Shown here piece by piece: positions 1,152-58,655 of a stretch of DNA of 64,000 bases (its first letter is position 1; each line of letters begins with the position of its first letter). Under the pieces are notes generated by a model. The model searched no databases, was not told where the DNA came from, and was given only the letters and a program-made list of their open reading frames with translations. The position numbers were made by a program, and so were the translations under genes. The stretch spans positions 1 to 64,000 of the forward strand of contig JAMLGK010000005.1 in NCBI GenBank assembly GCA_023957995.1. The letters run 5' to 3'. This DNA is from Microthrixaceae bacterium (GTDB taxonomy: Bacteria > Actinomycetota > Acidimicrobiia > Acidimicrobiales > Microtrichaceae).

Positions 1152-2303
1152 TCACAGCCGGGTGCGGCTCGGGCCCGGCGAAGCACCGTCCCAGTGAGCT
1201 GCGGCGACCCGCCACACATCATCGGTATCAACCGGTTCGACGTCGGCCGCCGCCGTTGAGATGTCCGTCGGGTCGACCGGCGTTGTCCGGCAGGGGGGCC
1301 GCGGTACCCGGCCGGCGAGCTCGACCGCCACACACACCTCTGCCGCGCCGGCATCCAGCTCGGCCGCGACCGACCAGGTCTCGCTACGCACCGCTGGAAC
1401 CGTCCCGGTCGCGGCCCCGTCGTGATTGCCGTCGTCGCTCCCGGCGGAGGCCACACCGGGGGTGGAGCGATCGAGCAATGTGGCGGTTCTCTCCGTGGAG
1501 AACCACTGCCAGCCGTATCTGTGGAACCCTTCGCGGTCGGCCACCGCTGCGGTCGGCTCCGGCAGGGTCAGCGCGCCCCGCACATGGCCCGCCAGGGCGT
1601 CGTAACTGTCCGCACGCCGAAGGACCGCCGTCGCCGAAGTGGAATCGAGGTGCGACCACGACACGCCTTCGGGCAGGGAGATCGCGGTGGGGGCGAAGCG
1701 ATGCCCACCGGCATGGCTGCTGCGCCAGACCCTCGCGCCACTCGTCGTCGGAGCCCGGTCCGAGCTGTCCGGCTGGCCGATCCCCGACAGTTGGCCGTAC
1801 AACGCCGTACCGCTGCCGCCGCAACAGACATCACGGGTTCCGTGGGTGCAGAGCAACAGGTCCACCGTCGCCTCCGGCGGGTCATTGCGCATGCTCTCGA
1901 AGCCCGCGACGGCGTCCTCATCGGCCTCGATCAGCACCCGGCAGAGATCGGCCAAGGAGCCCGCACGGTCCTCGGGCAGGAGCCACTCACGACGCCTGAA
2001 AGGACCCGTTCGGCGCTCTTCTGCGACGGAACGCTCGTAGGAGATGACGGCGGTCCCGGGCCCGACCGGCACGACGCCCTGAGGACGCCAAACCCGGCCA
2101 TCTGCACCCTCGATGGTCGCCGAGGGAGCCTGACAGAGCCCGCTGAACGGTGGGGCCTCGGATATGTCGCGTGGCCACGGCCCGGGGATCTCGACCACGA
2201 GCAGCGCGTCCCAACGGGGTGCGGTGCCGACCGGATCCACGCCCTGCGCCTCGTGCATCGGTGCGCACCGAAACGTCTTCTGAGCAGGGGTCACCGGATC
2301 CAT
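1152..2303 (-). CDS. Sucrase/ferredoxin-like family protein
   Basis: The 383-residue protein matches the Suc_Fer-like family (thioredoxin-like ferredoxins). The diagnostic core is LLLCTHGTRDVCCGGSGTAL, a Cys-x-His plus Cys-Cys cluster, followed by RVWRSSHAGGHRFAPTAI. Such proteins are thought to bind a [2Fe-2S] cluster, but their substrate is unknown. The open frame extends upstream to 2624 and overlaps the divergent regulator, so I chose the ATG at 2303, which starts MDPVTPAQKTFRCAPM, a typical N-terminus for the family. Divergent orientation from the TetR gene with an operator-like palindrome between them suggests control by that regulator (inference). Confidence 0.78.
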   Translation of the reverse strand: MDPVTPAQKTFRCAPMHEAQGVDPVGTAPRWDALLVVEIPGPWPRDISEAPPFSGLCQAPSATIEGADGRVWRPQGVVPVGPGTAVISYERSVAEERRTGPFRRREWLLPEDRAGSLADLCRVLIEADEDAVAGFESMRNDPPEATVDLLLCTHGTRDVCCGGSGTALYGQLSGIGQPDSSDRAPTTSGARVWRSSHAGGHRFAPTAISLPEGVSWSHLDSTSATAVLRRADSYDALAGHVRGALTLPEPTAAVADREGFHRYGWQWFSTERTATLLDRSTPGVASAGSDDGNHDGAATGTVPAVRSETWSVAAELDAGAAEVCVAVELAGRVPRPPCRTTPVDPTDISTAAADVEPVDTDDVWRVAAAHWDGASPGPSRTRL

Positions 2304-2502: not shown

Positions 2503-3081
2503 ATGCGACTACCTGCAGCCGAGCGACGAGAGCAACTGATCTCGACCGCCACCTCGGTGTTCGCGGAACAAGGTTTCCATGCCACTTCGATGAACGACGT
2601 GGCCGAGGCAGCGGGAGTGACCAAACCGGTTCTCTACCAGCACTTCTCGTCCAAGCGGGACCTGTTCGTGGAGTTGCTGACCGAGATCGGCAACCAGCTG
2701 CGTGACCGGATCGCCAAGGCGACCGCCGATGCGGTGGGTCCGCGCCAGCAGATAGAGCAGGGCTTCCGCGCCTACTTCGACTACGTCGGCGCCAACACCG
2801 ATGCCTACCGCGTGCTCTTCGGTTCGGGTGCCCGCCGGGATCCGGAGTTCGCCTCGCTCACGCGGGTGGTCGAGGAGTCGATCGCCGAGGCGATCGCGGA
2901 GTTGATCGTGGTCGACGGCCGCCCGGCCGAGGACCGGGAACTGATAGCGCACACCATCGTCGGCATGACCGAAGCGGCCAGCCGGTACTGGCTCACGCAC
3001 GACCGCACGCCGGACATCGACCAGCTCGCCGATTCGGTGGCCCGGCTCGCCTGGTCGGGCATGCGCGGCATCACCGGCTGA
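2503..3081 (+). CDS. TetR/AcrR family transcriptional regulator
   Basis: The 192-residue protein has an N-terminal helix-turn-helix (residues ~10-55; MNDVAEAAGVTKPVLYQHF with the recognition helix TKPVLYQHF) and a helical ligand-binding domain. The ATG at 2503 has GAGGAC upstream as a weak Shine-Dalgarno. Its own upstream region carries the palindrome GTTACCGTTCGGTAAC, which suggests autoregulation and control of the divergent gene. A near copy of the palindrome precedes the acyl-CoA dehydrogenase gene near 45.5 kb, pointing to an acyl-CoA-type effector, as for many TetR regulators of lipid metabolism. Family certain, regulon inferred. Confidence 0.93.
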   Translation: MRLPAAERREQLISTATSVFAEQGFHATSMNDVAEAAGVTKPVLYQHFSSKRDLFVELLTEIGNQLRDRIAKATADAVGPRQQIEQGFRAYFDYVGANTDAYRVLFGSGARRDPEFASLTRVVEESIAEAIAELIVVDGRPAEDRELIAHTIVGMTEAASRYWLTHDRTPDIDQLADSVARLAWSGMRGITG

Positions 3082-44242: not shown

Positions 44243-45472
44243 CTACTCGATGCGCAGTCCCGAGATGGCCCGACCGATCACGAGCTGCTGGATCTGCTCG
44301 GTGCCCTCGAAGATGTCCATGATCTTCGCGTCACGGTGCCAACGCTCGACCGGGTACTCACGGGTGTATCCGTAGCCACCGAGGATCTGGATGGCCCGCT
44401 CGGTGACCCACACCGCCGTACGGCCGGCATGCAGCTTGGACATGGAGCCCTCTGCGTTGGTGAAGGTGCCGTTGCGGCTGAGCCAGGCGGCGCGGTGCAC
44501 GAGCAGCCGCGATGCGTCGATCTGGGTGGCCATGTCGGCGAGCATGAACGCGATCGCCTGGTTCATGATGATCGGCTTGCCGAACGCCACCCGCTCCTGG
44601 GCGTAGTCGAGCGAATACTCGTAGGCCGCGCGGGCGATGCCCACGGCCATCGCTGCCACCGAGGGGCGCGTTGCTTCGAAGGTGGCCATCGCAGGCTGCT
44701 TGCCCGAGGACACCTGTGGGTTCTTCTGGGCCTCGCGCGCCTTTGCGAGCTTCTCGTCGAGCTTCTCCTTGCCACCGAGGAGGCAGCTGCCCGGAATGCG
44801 CACGTCCTCGAGCACGACCTCGGAGGTGTGCGAAGCACGGATCCCGTGCTTCTTGTACTTCTGGCCCTGGGAGAGACCCGGAGTGTTCGGGGGGACGATG
44901 AAACTCGCCTGCCCACGACCCTTGAGCTCCGGATCCACAGCGGCAACGACCACGTGCACGTCAGCGATCCCGCCGTTGGTGATCCACGCCTTGGTGCCGT
45001 TGAGCACCCACTCGTCGTTGGCCTGGTCGTACACCGCACGGGTGCGCAGGGATGACACATCGGATCCCGCGTCGGGCTCTGACACGCAGAACGCACCCAG
45101 CTTCACATCATCGGCGGTGCCGTAGCACTGCGGCACCCATTCGAGTGTCTGTTCGGGTGTTCCGTTGCCGGCGATGCCGGCGGCGGCGAGCCCGGAACCG
45201 AAGATCGACAGCCCGATGCCGGCGTCTCCCCAGAACAGCTCCTCGAGGGCGATCGGCAGGGTGAGCCCGGTCTCGTCGCCCAGCATCGCCTGAGCCATGA
45301 AGTCGAAGCCGTAGAGGCCCACCTTGGCGGCCTCCTCGACCACCGGCCACGGGAACTCCTCGCGTTCGTCCCACTCCTCGGCAGCCGGACGAACGACGTT
45401 CTCAGCGAACTCGTGCACCCACTTCTGGATCTGGATCTGGTCCTCGTTCAGCTCGAGGGAGAACTCGCCCAT
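44243..45472 (-). CDS. Acyl-CoA dehydrogenase
   Basis: The 409-residue FAD enzyme oxidises an acyl-CoA to the 2,3-enoyl-CoA and passes electrons to ETF. Visible motifs are GAFCVSEPDAGSDVSSLRT and WITNGGIADVHVV in the beta domain, RVAFGKPIIMNQAI and the C-terminal ILGGYGYTREYPVERWHRDA. The catalytic base is the Glu in IFEGTEQIQQLVIGRAI. Chain-length preference is not deducible. The ATG at 45472 has GGAAG 9 nt upstream; a GTG three codons earlier lacks spacing. An operator-like palindrome nearly identical to the one in the TetR region lies ~70 bp upstream. Confidence 0.94.
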   Translation of the reverse strand: MGEFSLELNEDQIQIQKWVHEFAENVVRPAAEEWDEREEFPWPVVEEAAKVGLYGFDFMAQAMLGDETGLTLPIALEELFWGDAGIGLSIFGSGLAAAGIAGNGTPEQTLEWVPQCYGTADDVKLGAFCVSEPDAGSDVSSLRTRAVYDQANDEWVLNGTKAWITNGGIADVHVVVAAVDPELKGRGQASFIVPPNTPGLSQGQKYKKHGIRASHTSEVVLEDVRIPGSCLLGGKEKLDEKLAKAREAQKNPQVSSGKQPAMATFEATRPSVAAMAVGIARAAYEYSLDYAQERVAFGKPIIMNQAIAFMLADMATQIDASRLLVHRAAWLSRNGTFTNAEGSMSKLHAGRTAVWVTERAIQILGGYGYTREYPVERWHRDAKIMDIFEGTEQIQQLVIGRAISGLRIE

Positions 45473-45540
45473 GTCAGTCACCTTCCGAACGTTCCGGCCC
45501 CGTTGCCGGGTGCCCTACGGGAATTTAGATACGCCCCGTA

Positions 45541-45558
45541 GGTTACCGACGGGTAACC
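45541..45558. promoter_or_regulatory. Inverted repeat upstream of acyl-CoA dehydrogenase, near copy of the TetR-region operator
   Basis: ggttaccgacgggtaacc contains GTTACCG-AC-GGGTAAC, which matches the TetR-region palindrome GTTACCG-TT-CGGTAAC in both half-sites with one change outside the spacer. The -10-like TATCTA lies just downstream on the minus strand. Confidence 0.6.
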
Positions 45559-45601
45559 GGGCTCCACAATCGGGCACTTCCCCCAGTACCGCCGGAACGG
45601 C

Positions 45602-46597
45602 CTAGGCACCATCCCAGGCGAAGCGCACCGCCAACGGTGGATGGTCGGACAGATCGGTTCCCGCGGAATCCAGGAAGTCCTCGGTCGGGTAGTCGTGCGA
45701 AAGTGCGCTCAGGTCCACTCCGCCGCCGTCGCGGTAGGCCGCCTTGTCGATGTTTCCCGGCTCGGCGCACGACAGTTCGGCACAGACGTCGGTGAGCCCG
45801 GTCTCCGCCAGGAACCCGGCCCAGATCGCGGCGTCCGCGAAGTCGGTGTCAGCAGGATCGGTCACGTCGGTGTGCAGGTTCGTGTCGCCGGCGAGGACCA
45901 CGGCGCGACCTGCCGAATGGGCCTTGATGAACGCGGCCAGCTGTGCGTAGTCGTCGACCTGCAGCGCCTGGTCGGTATCGGTGCCACCAGCCTCGGCGTG
46001 GAGGTCATAGACGTCGACCACGTATCCATCGGCGAGCGTCATCGTGGCGACCGAGAACCCCTTCATGGCAAGACAGTCACTCGCTCCGTCGAGTACTCCG
46101 TAGCAGCCTGCCCAGGGCACCCGCTCCGGCTCGGTGAACGGATACCGCGCCATCATCCCCAGGCCGTCGCCGACGAACAACGGCCGGCTGGTGGGATCCA
46201 GACCCACCGCGTAGGGACCTGGGTGCTGGCCCGAGCGATAGGGATGGTCGGCGCTGCCGCGGAGCCACCGGTGGTGGTTCGCGAAGGGCAATCCGTCGAG
46301 AAGTGGCTGCCACCAGTCGAAGTCCTCCTGGGTGAGCACCACGTCGTAGTCGTTCAGACGGGGGCTGATCAGCGCCAGGTTCGTCTCCGGATCGGACCCC
46401 GAGATGCCCTGCGGCAGCCCGGCGACGTTGTAGGAGAGCACCGAGAACTCCCCCGGTGGACCGGCCAGGGGCACGATCGTCGTGGTGGGCGGAGCACCTC
46501 CGGTGCCGGGTGGATTTGTGCAACCGACCCCGACCAGCGCAATGACCGACAGCGCGGCGGCCAGCAACGACCCCCGCCTCCCCCATGAATTCGACAT
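45602..46597 (-). CDS. Secreted endonuclease/exonuclease/phosphatase-family lipoprotein
   Basis: The 331-residue protein has a lipoprotein signal (VIALVGVGCTNPP) and an EEP-fold domain. Metal and catalytic residues are visible in LSYNVAGLP, VVLTQEDFDWW (catalytic Glu), VDVYDLHAEAG, VVLAGDTNLH (GDxN) and LSDHPPLAV (final Asp-His). The layout resembles neutral sphingomyelinases or surface phosphodiesterases more than DNA-repair exonucleases, so a phospholipid or phosphodiester substrate outside the cell is likely. Start supported by TAGGGT 6 nt upstream. It lies downstream of cysS on the same strand. Confidence 0.86.
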   Translation of the reverse strand: MSNSWGRRGSLLAAALSVIALVGVGCTNPPGTGGAPPTTTIVPLAGPPGEFSVLSYNVAGLPQGISGSDPETNLALISPRLNDYDVVLTQEDFDWWQPLLDGLPFANHHRWLRGSADHPYRSGQHPGPYAVGLDPTSRPLFVGDGLGMMARYPFTEPERVPWAGCYGVLDGASDCLAMKGFSVATMTLADGYVVDVYDLHAEAGGTDTDQALQVDDYAQLAAFIKAHSAGRAVVLAGDTNLHTDVTDPADTDFADAAIWAGFLAETGLTDVCAELSCAEPGNIDKAAYRDGGGVDLSALSHDYPTEDFLDSAGTDLSDHPPLAVRFAWDGA

Positions 46598-46603
46598 GTT
46601 CGA

Positions 46604-46609
46604 ACCCTA
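46604..46609 (-). promoter_or_regulatory. Leaderless -10 box (TAGGGT)
   Basis: On the minus strand TAGGGT precedes the ATG at 46597 by 6 nt. Confidence 0.55.
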
Positions 46610-46681
46610 CGACCGGGTCGGGCACCCAACAAGGCCCGACGCGGTCGGCGCGCAGAGCGACGGCCTGCGGGACCGCTTGAC

Positions 46682-48055
46682 TCAATCGCGCCGTACGGCG
46701 GTGCCCGACGCGGTGTCCTCGACCACCCACCCGCCGGCAGTGAGCTCGTCGCGCAGTGCGTCAGCTGCAGCGAAGTCCCGTTGTGCACGGGCCTCATCAC
46801 GGCGACGGCACAGCTCGAGCACCTCCGGTGGCAACTCGTCGGTCTCGGCAACCACATCGAGACCGACCGCATCGAGCATGCAACGCCATGCGGCCACGAT
46901 CGGCGCAGCCTCGGCGCGTCCTCCCGGTCCGGAGTCGAGAGCGCGGTTGGCGTCGGTCACGCACCCGAACAGAACCGCCATGGCGCCGGGGGTGTCGAGG
47001 TCGTCGTCCATACGTGCACGGAACGCCGCCATCCTCGCCGGGTCCTCGGACGCGACGGCATCGGAGTCCAGGTCCACCGTCCGTCTGGCCAGGGCGTCGA
47101 GACGTCCCAGCGCAGCTTCGGCATTGGCCATCGAGCTGGCTGTGACCTCGACCGGGGAGCGGTAGTGCGCCTGGAGGATCAACAATCGCAGCGCCCTCGG
47201 GTCGTGTCTGGCCAGCAGGTCATCGACGGTCGTGAAGTTGTCCAGCGACTTGGACATCTTCTCCCCGCCGACCTCCACGAATCCGTTGTGGGCCCAACGC
47301 CGTGAGAACGGCCGGCCCAACGCCACCGCCTGGGCGCGCTCGTTCTCGTGGTGTGGGAAGGCGAGGTCCACTCCCCCTCCGTGGAGGTCGAAGTCGTCAC
47401 CGAGCAGGTCGAGGCTCATCACGACACACTCGGTGTGCCAGCCGGGTCGGCCCTCTCCCCACGGCGACGGCCACGATGGTTCGCCGGGCTTGGCGAACTT
47501 CCACAGAACGAAGTCCGCCGGGTTGCGTTTCTCGGTGCCCACCAGATCGCGGTCGCCGCCGCCCTCGAGCATCTCATCGAGCGACTGGTGTGCGAGGAGG
47601 CCGTAGTCGGCGACGCTGTCCACGGCCAGGTAGACGCCATCGGAGGTCACGTACGCGGCGTCCTTCGCGACCAGTTCGCCGATGGTCCCGACCATCTGTT
47701 CGACATAGTCGGTTGCATGGGGGTCGAGGTCGGGTCGACGCACCCCGAGCGACTCCATGGTCGAGTACCAGGCTCGTTCCCAGGCCTTCGCGAACTCGGC
47801 CGGATCCCGCCCCTCCTCGGCTGCCCGGGTGATTATCTTGTCGTCGATGTCGGTGACATTGGACACGAAGGTCACCTCGAGTCCCGACCACTGCAGATAG
47901 CGCCTCATCACGTCGAACACGAGAGCCATGCGTGCATGGCCCAGGTGTGCCGGGCCATAGACGGTGGGCCCGCAGACGTACATCGACACCTTCGACGGGT
48001 CGCGCAGTTCGAGGGGCGCGACGGACCTGGTGGCGGTGTCGTACAGCGAGATCAC
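46682..48055 (-). CDS. cysS: Cysteinyl-tRNA synthetase (EC 6.1.1.16)
   Basis: The 457-residue class I synthetase charges tRNA-Cys. Signatures are YVCGPTVYGPAHLGHARM (zinc Cys and HIGH motif), WHTECVVMSLDLLGDDFDLH and HHENERAQ (zinc site), and EKMSKSLDNF (KMSKS). The C-terminal ~100 residues form the anticodon-binding helical domain, which together with the length separates it from the shorter mycothiol ligase MshC. The GTG at 48055 is fixed by TAGGAT 7 nt upstream; a longer open frame upstream is rejected. Divergent from the GGDEF-like gene. Confidence 0.94.
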   Translation of the reverse strand: MISLYDTATRSVAPLELRDPSKVSMYVCGPTVYGPAHLGHARMALVFDVMRRYLQWSGLEVTFVSNVTDIDDKIITRAAEEGRDPAEFAKAWERAWYSTMESLGVRRPDLDPHATDYVEQMVGTIGELVAKDAAYVTSDGVYLAVDSVADYGLLAHQSLDEMLEGGGDRDLVGTEKRNPADFVLWKFAKPGEPSWPSPWGEGRPGWHTECVVMSLDLLGDDFDLHGGGVDLAFPHHENERAQAVALGRPFSRRWAHNGFVEVGGEKMSKSLDNFTTVDDLLARHDPRALRLLILQAHYRSPVEVTASSMANAEAALGRLDALARRTVDLDSDAVASEDPARMAAFRARMDDDLDTPGAMAVLFGCVTDANRALDSGPGGRAEAAPIVAAWRCMLDAVGLDVVAETDELPPEVLELCRRRDEARAQRDFAAADALRDELTAGGWVVEDTASGTAVRRD

Positions 48056-48062
48056 GTCGGCA

Positions 48063-48068
48063 ATCCTA
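48063..48068 (-). promoter_or_regulatory. Leaderless -10 box (TAGGAT) of cysS
   Basis: On the minus strand TAGGAT precedes the GTG at 48055 by 7 nt. Confidence 0.6.
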
Positions 48069-48162
48069 CCGGTGCCCCGGGCGCATCCGAGCAGTGCCGC
48101 AACGCTGGAGACCAAGCCGGTTCGGGTTCGGTGCGGGCGGTCGGTTTTGGCACCCTCGCCGA

Positions 48163-48168
48163 TACCGT
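48163..48168 (+). promoter_or_regulatory. Leaderless -10 box (TACCGT)
   Basis: TACCGT lies 7 nt before the GTG at 48176. Confidence 0.55.
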
Positions 48169-48175
48169 CGGAGCG

Positions 48176-49378
48176 GTGCGGGAACCCACCGGAGCAGAAC
48201 CGACGCGTGTGATCGCGGCAGTGGTCGGTCCACCTGTGGTCGCCGAGCTGTTGGTCGCCGCTCTGGACATCGGGGGCGTCGGCGCACTGGCGGTACGGGC
48301 AGGTGGCTGGATCGCGGCCGCCGGGTTGGTGGTGGCGGTGGTGGTACGTCCGCTGCTGGCACAGATAGCGGCCGAGCGCCTGGCCACCGAGGACGCCCGC
48401 TGTGAACTCGACAGGCTCGGCACCGAGGTGGACTTCCGCGAGCGCGTCGGTCGGGCCCTCACCCAGGCCGGGGCCGACGAGGCCGCGATGCGCGCCGCCC
48501 TGCGTGCAGTGCACGAGGTCCTCCCCGATGCCGACGTCTCCCTGCTGCTCGCCGTGCCCGACCAACCCCGCGTCGGTTGGAAGGTCCGGCTCACCGAGGG
48601 GGAGATCCAGCCGGCCCGACCGATTCCGGGCACCCCGGGGTGTTCTGCCCTGGCGGGCAACACGATCGTGGCCACGGACTCCACTGCGTTGGATTCATGC
48701 GAGCACATGGAGGACCCCGACATGACCGTGTCGGCCACCTGCGTGCCGCTGCGCATCGGCGAGAGACTGCTCGGGGTCGTCTCGGCGGTCCAGGCTCCGG
48801 GCGAGGGACCGGACCAGCACCAGCTCCAACTCATCGAGTGGGTGGTCGAGCGCACCGGTGCACGGATCTCCGAACTGCGCCGCTCCCAGAACCGCCACGA
48901 GCACTTCGCAACCGATGCCACGACCGGACTGGCGGGACCGGACGCACTCGAGTCGCACCTGCGCGACAACTTCCGCTCGCTGGTCCCGTTCTGTGTGTCG
49001 CTGATCGAGATCGACGACTTCCCGGGACTCGTTCACCTGCGCAGCCCGTCTGAGGTGGACGAGGTGTTGCGCACGCTGGCTGACTCCCTGCGCCTGACGC
49101 TGCGGCCCGATGACGTGATCACCCAGATCGACAGAGGGCGATTCGCGGTGCTGCTCGTGAACTGTGGGGCCACGCACGCTTCGCTCGCGCTCGAACGGGT
49201 GCGCGAATCGCTGGCGCTGTCACTGAGCGTGGCCGAGGCAGCTCCGTTCACCTTCTCGGCCGGTGTGGTCGAGTCGCACCGAGCGACCTCGATCGACGAC
49301 CTGCTCGAACAGGGCCGCTCGGCGCTACGACTCGCTCACGGCAACGGCGGCAACAGGGTGGCCCTGGCCCACGACTGA
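48176..49378 (+). CDS. GAF-like plus degenerate GGDEF domain protein
   Basis: The 400-residue protein has a hydrophobic N-terminal segment of one or two helices, a GAF-like sensor (~100-230; SATCVPLRIGERLLGVVSAV), and a GGDEF-fold domain (DATTGLAGPDALESHLRDNF onward). The diguanylate cyclase signature is degraded: the GG[D/E]EF position reads IDRGRFAVLL, so catalysis is unlikely, though the fold and the end motif FTFSAGVVES remain. It may bind nucleotide or act as a scaffold. A second protein with altered c-di-GMP motifs lies at 53976. Start fixed by the TACCGT box. Confidence 0.8.
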   Translation: MREPTGAEPTRVIAAVVGPPVVAELLVAALDIGGVGALAVRAGGWIAAAGLVVAVVVRPLLAQIAAERLATEDARCELDRLGTEVDFRERVGRALTQAGADEAAMRAALRAVHEVLPDADVSLLLAVPDQPRVGWKVRLTEGEIQPARPIPGTPGCSALAGNTIVATDSTALDSCEHMEDPDMTVSATCVPLRIGERLLGVVSAVQAPGEGPDQHQLQLIEWVVERTGARISELRRSQNRHEHFATDATTGLAGPDALESHLRDNFRSLVPFCVSLIEIDDFPGLVHLRSPSEVDEVLRTLADSLRLTLRPDDVITQIDRGRFAVLLVNCGATHASLALERVRESLALSLSVAEAAPFTFSAGVVESHRATSIDDLLEQGRSALRLAHGNGGNRVALAHD

Positions 49379-58626: not shown

Positions 58627-58655
58627 CGTTTCCTGTCGGTGACCGACAGGAAACG
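58627..58655. promoter_or_regulatory. Perfect 29-bp palindrome between lipoprotein and sigma-factor genes
   Basis: cgtttcctgtcggt, one central g, accgacaggaaacg. Both outer ends carry GGAAAC, resembling the -35 element of ECF promoters. An 8-bp palindrome CAACGTTG follows at 58656-58663, just before the sigma ATG. Confidence 0.7.

Follow-up and report, generated by a model that had tools for sequence, protein, structure and literature searches.

An acyl-CoA dehydrogenase (ACAD) gene in the window, as we call the whole 64-kb stretch of DNA analyzed here, is preceded by a palindrome that occurs a second time beside a gene for a TetR-family regulator. This raises the question of whether the two sites are operators of one regulon and, if so, which protein binds them and with what effect on transcription.

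Operator sites in the window and in the source genome

The palindrome, GTTACCGACGGGTAAC, is a 16-mer located at positions 45542-45557 (exact match in the window scan), which a flanking G/C pair extends to 45541-45558, giving 18-bp palindromic arms when that pair is counted. The ACAD gene lies on the minus strand at 44243-45472 and encodes 409 amino acids from the ATG at 45472 (PF00441, PF02770, and PF02771 over cut-off); butyryl-, short-, and medium-chain ACADs are among its solved relatives. The sequence and the T bias of the family sites described below point to a putative -10 box, TAACCT, at 45540-45545 (minus strand), in which an operator half-site is completed by two more bases. The twin operator, GTTACCGTTCGGTAAC, is an exact match at 2361-2376, between the TetR gene (2503-3081, plus strand) and a divergent sucrase/ferredoxin-like gene (1152-2303, minus strand).

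Perfect matches to GTTACCGnnSGGTAAC were found at two places only in the window, 2361 and 45542, as the preliminary description had proposed when it named a TetR gene and an ACAD gene that share an operator; its estimate of about 70 bp between operator and ACAD also agrees with the 69 bp measured from the operator end to the ATG at 45472. Its assignment of the other site to the TetR gene stands in so far as that site lies 126 bp from the TetR ATG, but the plausible ATG of the divergent gene at 2303 is nearer (57 bp), and the operator at 2361 may therefore serve both genes. It should be noted that this ATG was chosen by us, the profile match (PF06999) spanning 1152-2306, and that the sucrase/ferredoxin-like cluster was found again beside TetR in several loci of the family. 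When up to three mismatches were allowed, the window contained 17 matches with both strands counted, compared with 5.98 expected (sd 3.13), a number reached by none of 100 shuffles.

Two features of the window deserve separate mention. The stretch 58628-58654 holds a 27-bp inverted repeat, made up of two near-matches that overlap, with 13-bp arms and a single central base; it is probably the operator of another regulator or a hairpin. In addition, the ACAD gene lies close to cysS, encoding cysteinyl-tRNA synthetase (44243-48565 in the window; also L091, L103, L109, L131, L161, L165, L183, L189, and L192), a neighborhood that is kept in many loci of the family and order and for which a functional reason is not obvious.

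The consensus GTTACCGnnSGGTAAC proved too narrow, as the glpD site was matched only with a mismatch, and GTTACCnnnnGGTAAC was used instead. This motif occurs at five perfect places in the 3.54-Mb source genome, plus one with a single mismatch, and the reversed control motif has no perfect match there. Allowing as many as two mismatches leaves only a weak excess (44 matches vs. 33 for the control), so only sites with zero or one mismatch are informative, and the two-mismatch sites of this genome were dropped. All six remaining sites precede lipid-degradation genes or the TetR gene. Besides those before TetR (L001) and the ACAD of the window (L002), one is located 8 bp before the start of an ACAD that has FadE5 among its solved relatives (L003), and another precedes a thiolase (L004; over the cut-off of NCBIfam PRK07851). 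An SDR-MaoC-thiolase cluster carries the operator in the source genome. The one-mismatch site precedes etfB (L005). The last site lies between divergent rubrerythrin and glpD-like genes (L006); the frame of the latter is cut by the locus end and reaches 285 bits, below the NCBIfam cut-off of 360, and is therefore named "like". In L006 (918-1412, minus strand), the rubrerythrin gene and one more gene point away from this operator, a layout also seen in L114, L132, and L134.

Conservation and promoter overlap in the family

The survey of the family covered 33 genomes from 16 genera, with counts uncorrected for the relatedness of the genomes. Perfect copies of GTTACCnnnnGGTAAC occur 89 times, in 29 of the 33 genomes, and the reversed control does not occur at all. 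To assign genes, the 84 sites outside the source genome were each taken with up to 3.6 kb of surrounding sequence (some cut by contig ends), reading frames were clustered by BLAST, and the nearest member within 450 bp among five clusters (ACAD, thiolase, TetR, GlpD, and EtfB) was accepted, with 8 of 90 loci assigned by hand; a divergent gene of another type across the site thus goes uncounted, and the cluster names are based on those members that have Pfam or NCBIfam matches. By this procedure 86 of the 89 sites face a beta-oxidation, ETF, GlpD-like, or TetR gene: ACAD (45), thiolase (19), TetR (13), GlpD-like (6), 3-hydroxyacyl-CoA dehydrogenase (3HCDH; 2, identified in L127 by Pfam and in L135 as its near-identical counterpart), and EtfB (1). 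The other three correspond to a contig edge beside cysS, where relatives have an ACAD, to a SnoaL-like frame, and to an intragenic site in a frame that we take to be UPF0182. The fas operon is absent from these assignments, made with the five BLAST clusters and by hand.

We also approached conservation through protein searches made without the motif. The ACAD protein of the window has a match with an E-value of 1e-150 or better in 26 of the 33 genomes, and a site lies within 200 bp upstream of the gene in all 26 (22 perfect, four with one mismatch; control 0). The EtfB protein has a match in 30 genomes, and its upstream region carries a perfect site in 1/30, a site with up to one mismatch in 9/30, and with up to two in 13/30 (control 0). 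In 12 of these 13, the site stops 18-19 bp short of the ATG. As a target, etfB is thus conserved only in part.

The operator is therefore a real conserved regulatory element that stands before many fat-degradation genes in the source bacterium and its relatives. That the palindromes should be chance occurrences or a non-regulatory repeat, as the small excess at up to two mismatches in the source genome (44 vs. 33) might suggest, is improbable in the extreme given 89 perfect sites against none for the control in the family and the 26 of 26 orthologous ACAD promoters. Two expectations of the preliminary description were borne out by these counts, namely that the motif exceeds its random frequency (five perfect sites vs. 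none for the control in the genome, 89 vs. none in the family) and that it is enriched before beta-oxidation genes genome-wide (6/6 own sites at up to one mismatch and 86/89 perfect family sites precede lipid-degradation genes or the TetR gene). The sites before ACADs, thiolase, etfB, the glpD-like gene, and TetR likewise point to the lipid-degradation regulon that it had predicted.

Some family loci carry additional half-sites. In L091, L103, L109, L123, L126, L131, and L133 an extra GGTAAC half-site follows the ACAD operator by about 9 bp, which suggests tandem binding; this half-site is absent from the ACAD copy of the window itself. In L138 (G020, contig 56), several tandem GGTAACAACAGCCC-type units directly after the TetR operator multiply its right half-site.

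The position of the operator relative to the promoter was analyzed in 88 sites (the one-mismatch site L005 and the intragenic site L170 were excluded), with the mirrored offset on the other side of the palindrome as internal control. A T is found two bases past the gene-facing half-site in 82/88 sites, vs. 18/88 at the mirrored position (p = 2e-24), so that half-site plus two bases reads TAACnT, a -10 box of the TAnnnT kind. Upstream of TAACnT, TTG at a spacing of 16-19 bp occurs 28 times vs. once for the mirror. In addition, a start codon (counted if it opens at least 150 codons) follows the operator by 8-11 bp in 19/45 ACAD, 3/13 TetR, and 2/2 3HCDH sites, a spacing expected of leaderless transcripts. 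The ACAD of the window, the glpD group, and other targets have further TA-rich boxes downstream of the operator, which makes the transcription start sites uncertain there, and the TetR site of the window forms no TAACnT in either direction.

Because the operator overlaps the -10 box, its occupation should block RNA polymerase, which argues for a repressor acting by occlusion. Activators normally bind upstream of the -10 box, and for catabolic targets release by acyl-CoA makes sense for a repressor. The opposite sign of regulation, by a protein that activates as FasR does on the fas-acpS operon, has in its favor that FasR, an activator, is the nearest solved relative of the window TetR (PMC7382501); with 82 of 88 operators lying over the -10 box, we regard it as very unlikely.

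The TetR protein as candidate regulator

The TetR gene encodes 192 amino acids with PF00440 (69.8 bits, cut-off 24) and PF21943 (48.7 bits, cut-off 27), and both this domain content and the palindrome near its own gene, at 2361, are as in the TetR family. Its predicted structure (mean pLDDT 87) has FasR as first fold match (TM 0.87, including the complex with C20-CoA), followed by one Rhodococcus TetR and then by Bacillus subtilis FadR, including the stearoyl-CoA complex; FasR is also the nearest solved relative by sequence. The acyl-CoA ligands of these relatives, C20-CoA in FasR and stearoyl-CoA in FadR, would fit an acyl-CoA effector, which the preliminary description had already suggested beside a fatty acid and which is plausible. 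The operator is probably bound by a TetR-type repressor that releases it when fatty acyl-CoA builds up, and we consider it likely that the window TetR is this protein, a dimeric repressor that binds GTTACCnnnnGGTAAC, regulates itself, and controls a dispersed beta-oxidation regulon.

The proposed mechanism is as follows. The TetR dimer would bind GTTACCnnnnGGTAAC at its target promoters and at its own, the targets being the window ACAD, the FadE5-like ACAD, thiolase, etfB, and the glpD-like gene in the source genome, with 3HCDH and an EtfD-like Fe-S oxidoreductase added in relatives. Since the operator is embedded in the core promoter, where a half-site and two more bases serve as the -10 box TAACnT, the bound repressor would exclude RNA polymerase from it; some targets would be leaderless mRNAs that start 8-10 bp past the operator, with the exception of the window ACAD (69-bp gap). 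A long-chain acyl-CoA in the ligand tunnel would open the dimer and free the promoters, as described for FasR.

Orthologs of the TetR protein (at least 56% identity) are present in 29 of the 33 family genomes. A site with up to one mismatch lies within 350 bp upstream in 15 of these 29, and the other 14 have none in the 350 bp searched; the reversed control has no match at up to two mismatches upstream of TetR homologs in all 60 rows. Two family genomes have the TetR and no perfect site (G011 and G012; completeness 84 and 62%), and two have sites and no close TetR ortholog (G015 and G016; 75 and 76%). In the order and class outside the family, 7 of the first 11 homologs have a site with up to two mismatches, and 17 of all 24 have none at that threshold, including all 13 of the last batch, 11 of whose genomes carry no perfect motif anywhere. 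Among 18 distant rows, L230 (37% identity) has a perfect site, L234 (35%) one with a single mismatch, and two more have sites with two. Finally, 12 of 80 homologs in named records have a site with up to one mismatch within 300 bp (control 0/80), at least four of these (L247, L249, L271, and L273) being genomes already counted. The link between TetR and operator thus thins out outside the family, and the case for their pairing rests on the family genomes. Two metagenome-assembled records, titled Bifidobacterium breve (L278) and Thermoanaerobacterales (L259), contain TetRs 44 and 52% identical to that of the window, and are possibly mislabeled or mixed bins.

Another TetR could bind the sites, with the window TetR as a mere target. 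The source genome and many relatives have a second TetR, 28-38% identical, which in the source genome is a FasR-like paralog on contig 34 (37% identity); moreover, in mycobacterial-type genomes the motif is found before etfB, the EtfD-like gene, and the FadE5-like ACAD (in tandem, with one and two mismatches), and FasR or FdmR could be the regulator there. Two observations make this unlikely in our view: the site lies directly upstream of this particular TetR in 15/29 family orthologs and in the distant homologs L230 and L234, and in the order and class outside the family a TetR homolog is present in 13/13 genomes with the motif vs. 11/20 without it (p = 0.005). Autoregulation is common among TetR regulators.

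Judged by analogy, the best functional counterpart of the window TetR is mycobacterial FdmR. FdmR (Rv0238) has been described as a repressor that acts on genes of fatty-acid degradation and responds to long-chain acyl-CoA (PMC12403877), and as regulating fadE5 (PMC9262360). Its target set agrees with the regulon predicted here in beta-oxidation genes and a FadE5-like ACAD. In genome G070, a TetR gene lies less than 9 kb from SDR, thiolase, and FadE5-like ACAD genes, the ACAD promoter carrying two near copies of the motif. From the gene order, this TetR is presumably FdmR. It differs from the window TetR in sequence (28-30% identity for FdmR-like proteins; recognition helix SKPMLYLYY against TKPVLYQHF) and in layout, as the window TetR is not adjacent to the thiolase cluster. 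In the corresponding 19.9-kb stretch of G301 (L245), no ACAD was seen, and no site at up to two mismatches. The only FdmR-like row of the tree, L239, lies beside the FasR rows on a long branch, for which the tree output carries a warning.

FasR (Rv3208) is the closest solved structure, whether sequence or fold is compared (the fold match shows 34-35% identity), and two members of the FasR model, L225 and L228 of family f37, have a recognition helix near-identical to that of the window TetR. These two pass the FasR equivalog NF053731 with 360 and 365 bits, whereas the window TetR scores 148.6 bits, under the cut-off of 330. FasR differs further in that its crystal oligonucleotide lacks GTTACC and in that it activates fas-acpS (PMC7382501 and PMC7652896), whereas the window TetR would repress. 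As proposed for the window TetR, FasR is released from DNA by acyl-CoA, of C16 or longer (PMC7382501 and PMC7652896). A MEME motif for Rv3208 has been published only as a logo (PMC4482099). Bacillus FadR offers a third comparison with the stearoyl-CoA complex of B. subtilis FadR among the fold matches, the B. subtilis chains being only 19-20% identical to the window TetR, which scores 47.3 bits against NCBIfam FadR (NF053878), under the cut-off of 200. Bacillus FadR is a repressor of beta-oxidation controlled by acyl-CoA.

The motif beyond the family and its significance

Across 296 genomes of the phylum, the perfect motif was found in 54 and the reversed control in nine. We fetched 40 loci outside the family, a part of the matches listed. 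Among the 20 fetched loci from the order and class, the motif stands beside ACAD (9), TetR (3), 3HCDH (3; 56-67% BLAST identity to L127), zinc dehydrogenase followed by thiolase (1), an EtfD-like Fe-S protein (1), and an alpha/beta hydrolase (1); the remaining two (L176 and L191) were left unassigned, as were L207 and L209 of f24. The 12 fetched loci from f37, a family taken as mycobacteria since two TetRs in it exceed the NCBIfam mycobacterial FasR cut-off, comprise etfB (L197, L198, and L201), the EtfD-like gene (L195 and L199), an alpha/beta hydrolase (1), and six left unassigned. In L246 (f37), two tandem near copies precede a FadE5-like ACAD, whose cluster also includes SDR, thiolase, and a TetR in an FdmR-like position.

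The ratio of motif to control differs between genomes: Ilumatobacter (5/0), Acidimicrobiia EGI L10123 (3/0), Blastococcus (2/0), Geodermatophilus (5/0), Actinomadura (9/0), and Herbidospora (9/0) stand against Arthrobacter (5/6), Glycomyces (5/3), Sinomonas (0/2), and Actinocatenispora (3/2). Beyond the order, finding the motif is not diagnostic by itself. The genome of Candidatus Microthrix UBA2131 (L288, G327) has no site with up to one mismatch, so the picture for that genus is not a simple one.

As the motif is kept in the class, in f38, in f52, and in mycobacteria (before the FadE5-like ACAD, etfB, and the EtfD-like gene), we tentatively raise a broader reading, which we hold to be possible although doubtful: GTTACCnnnnGGTAAC welded to a -10 box might be a switch for fatty-acid degradation that is ancestral in the actinobacterial phylum, with the window TetR near the state from which FasR and FdmR diverged. 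If true, FasR, an activator of synthesis, and FdmR, a repressor of degradation, would have diverged from a state close to that TetR.

Repressors of fat degradation of the TetR type that respond to acyl-CoA are already known; to these, the analysis adds a predicted regulon with an operator embedded in the promoter, and a lead on mycobacterial genes. No regulon of this kind in Acidimicrobiia or Microthrix was found in the literature search, which was in part too broad to prove absence, and a search by the motif letters gave no related paper among the matches listed, as judged by title. For mycobacterial-type genomes, our analysis provides a candidate operator for genes coupled to acyl-CoA (FadE5-like ACAD, etfB, and the EtfD-like gene), in a group whose beta-oxidation is discussed as a drug target (PMC13083937). 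For the uncultured Microthrixaceae, it predicts a regulon of fat catabolism together with its exact operator sequence. These bacteria are related to Candidatus Microthrix, a lipid-storing organism of sludge.
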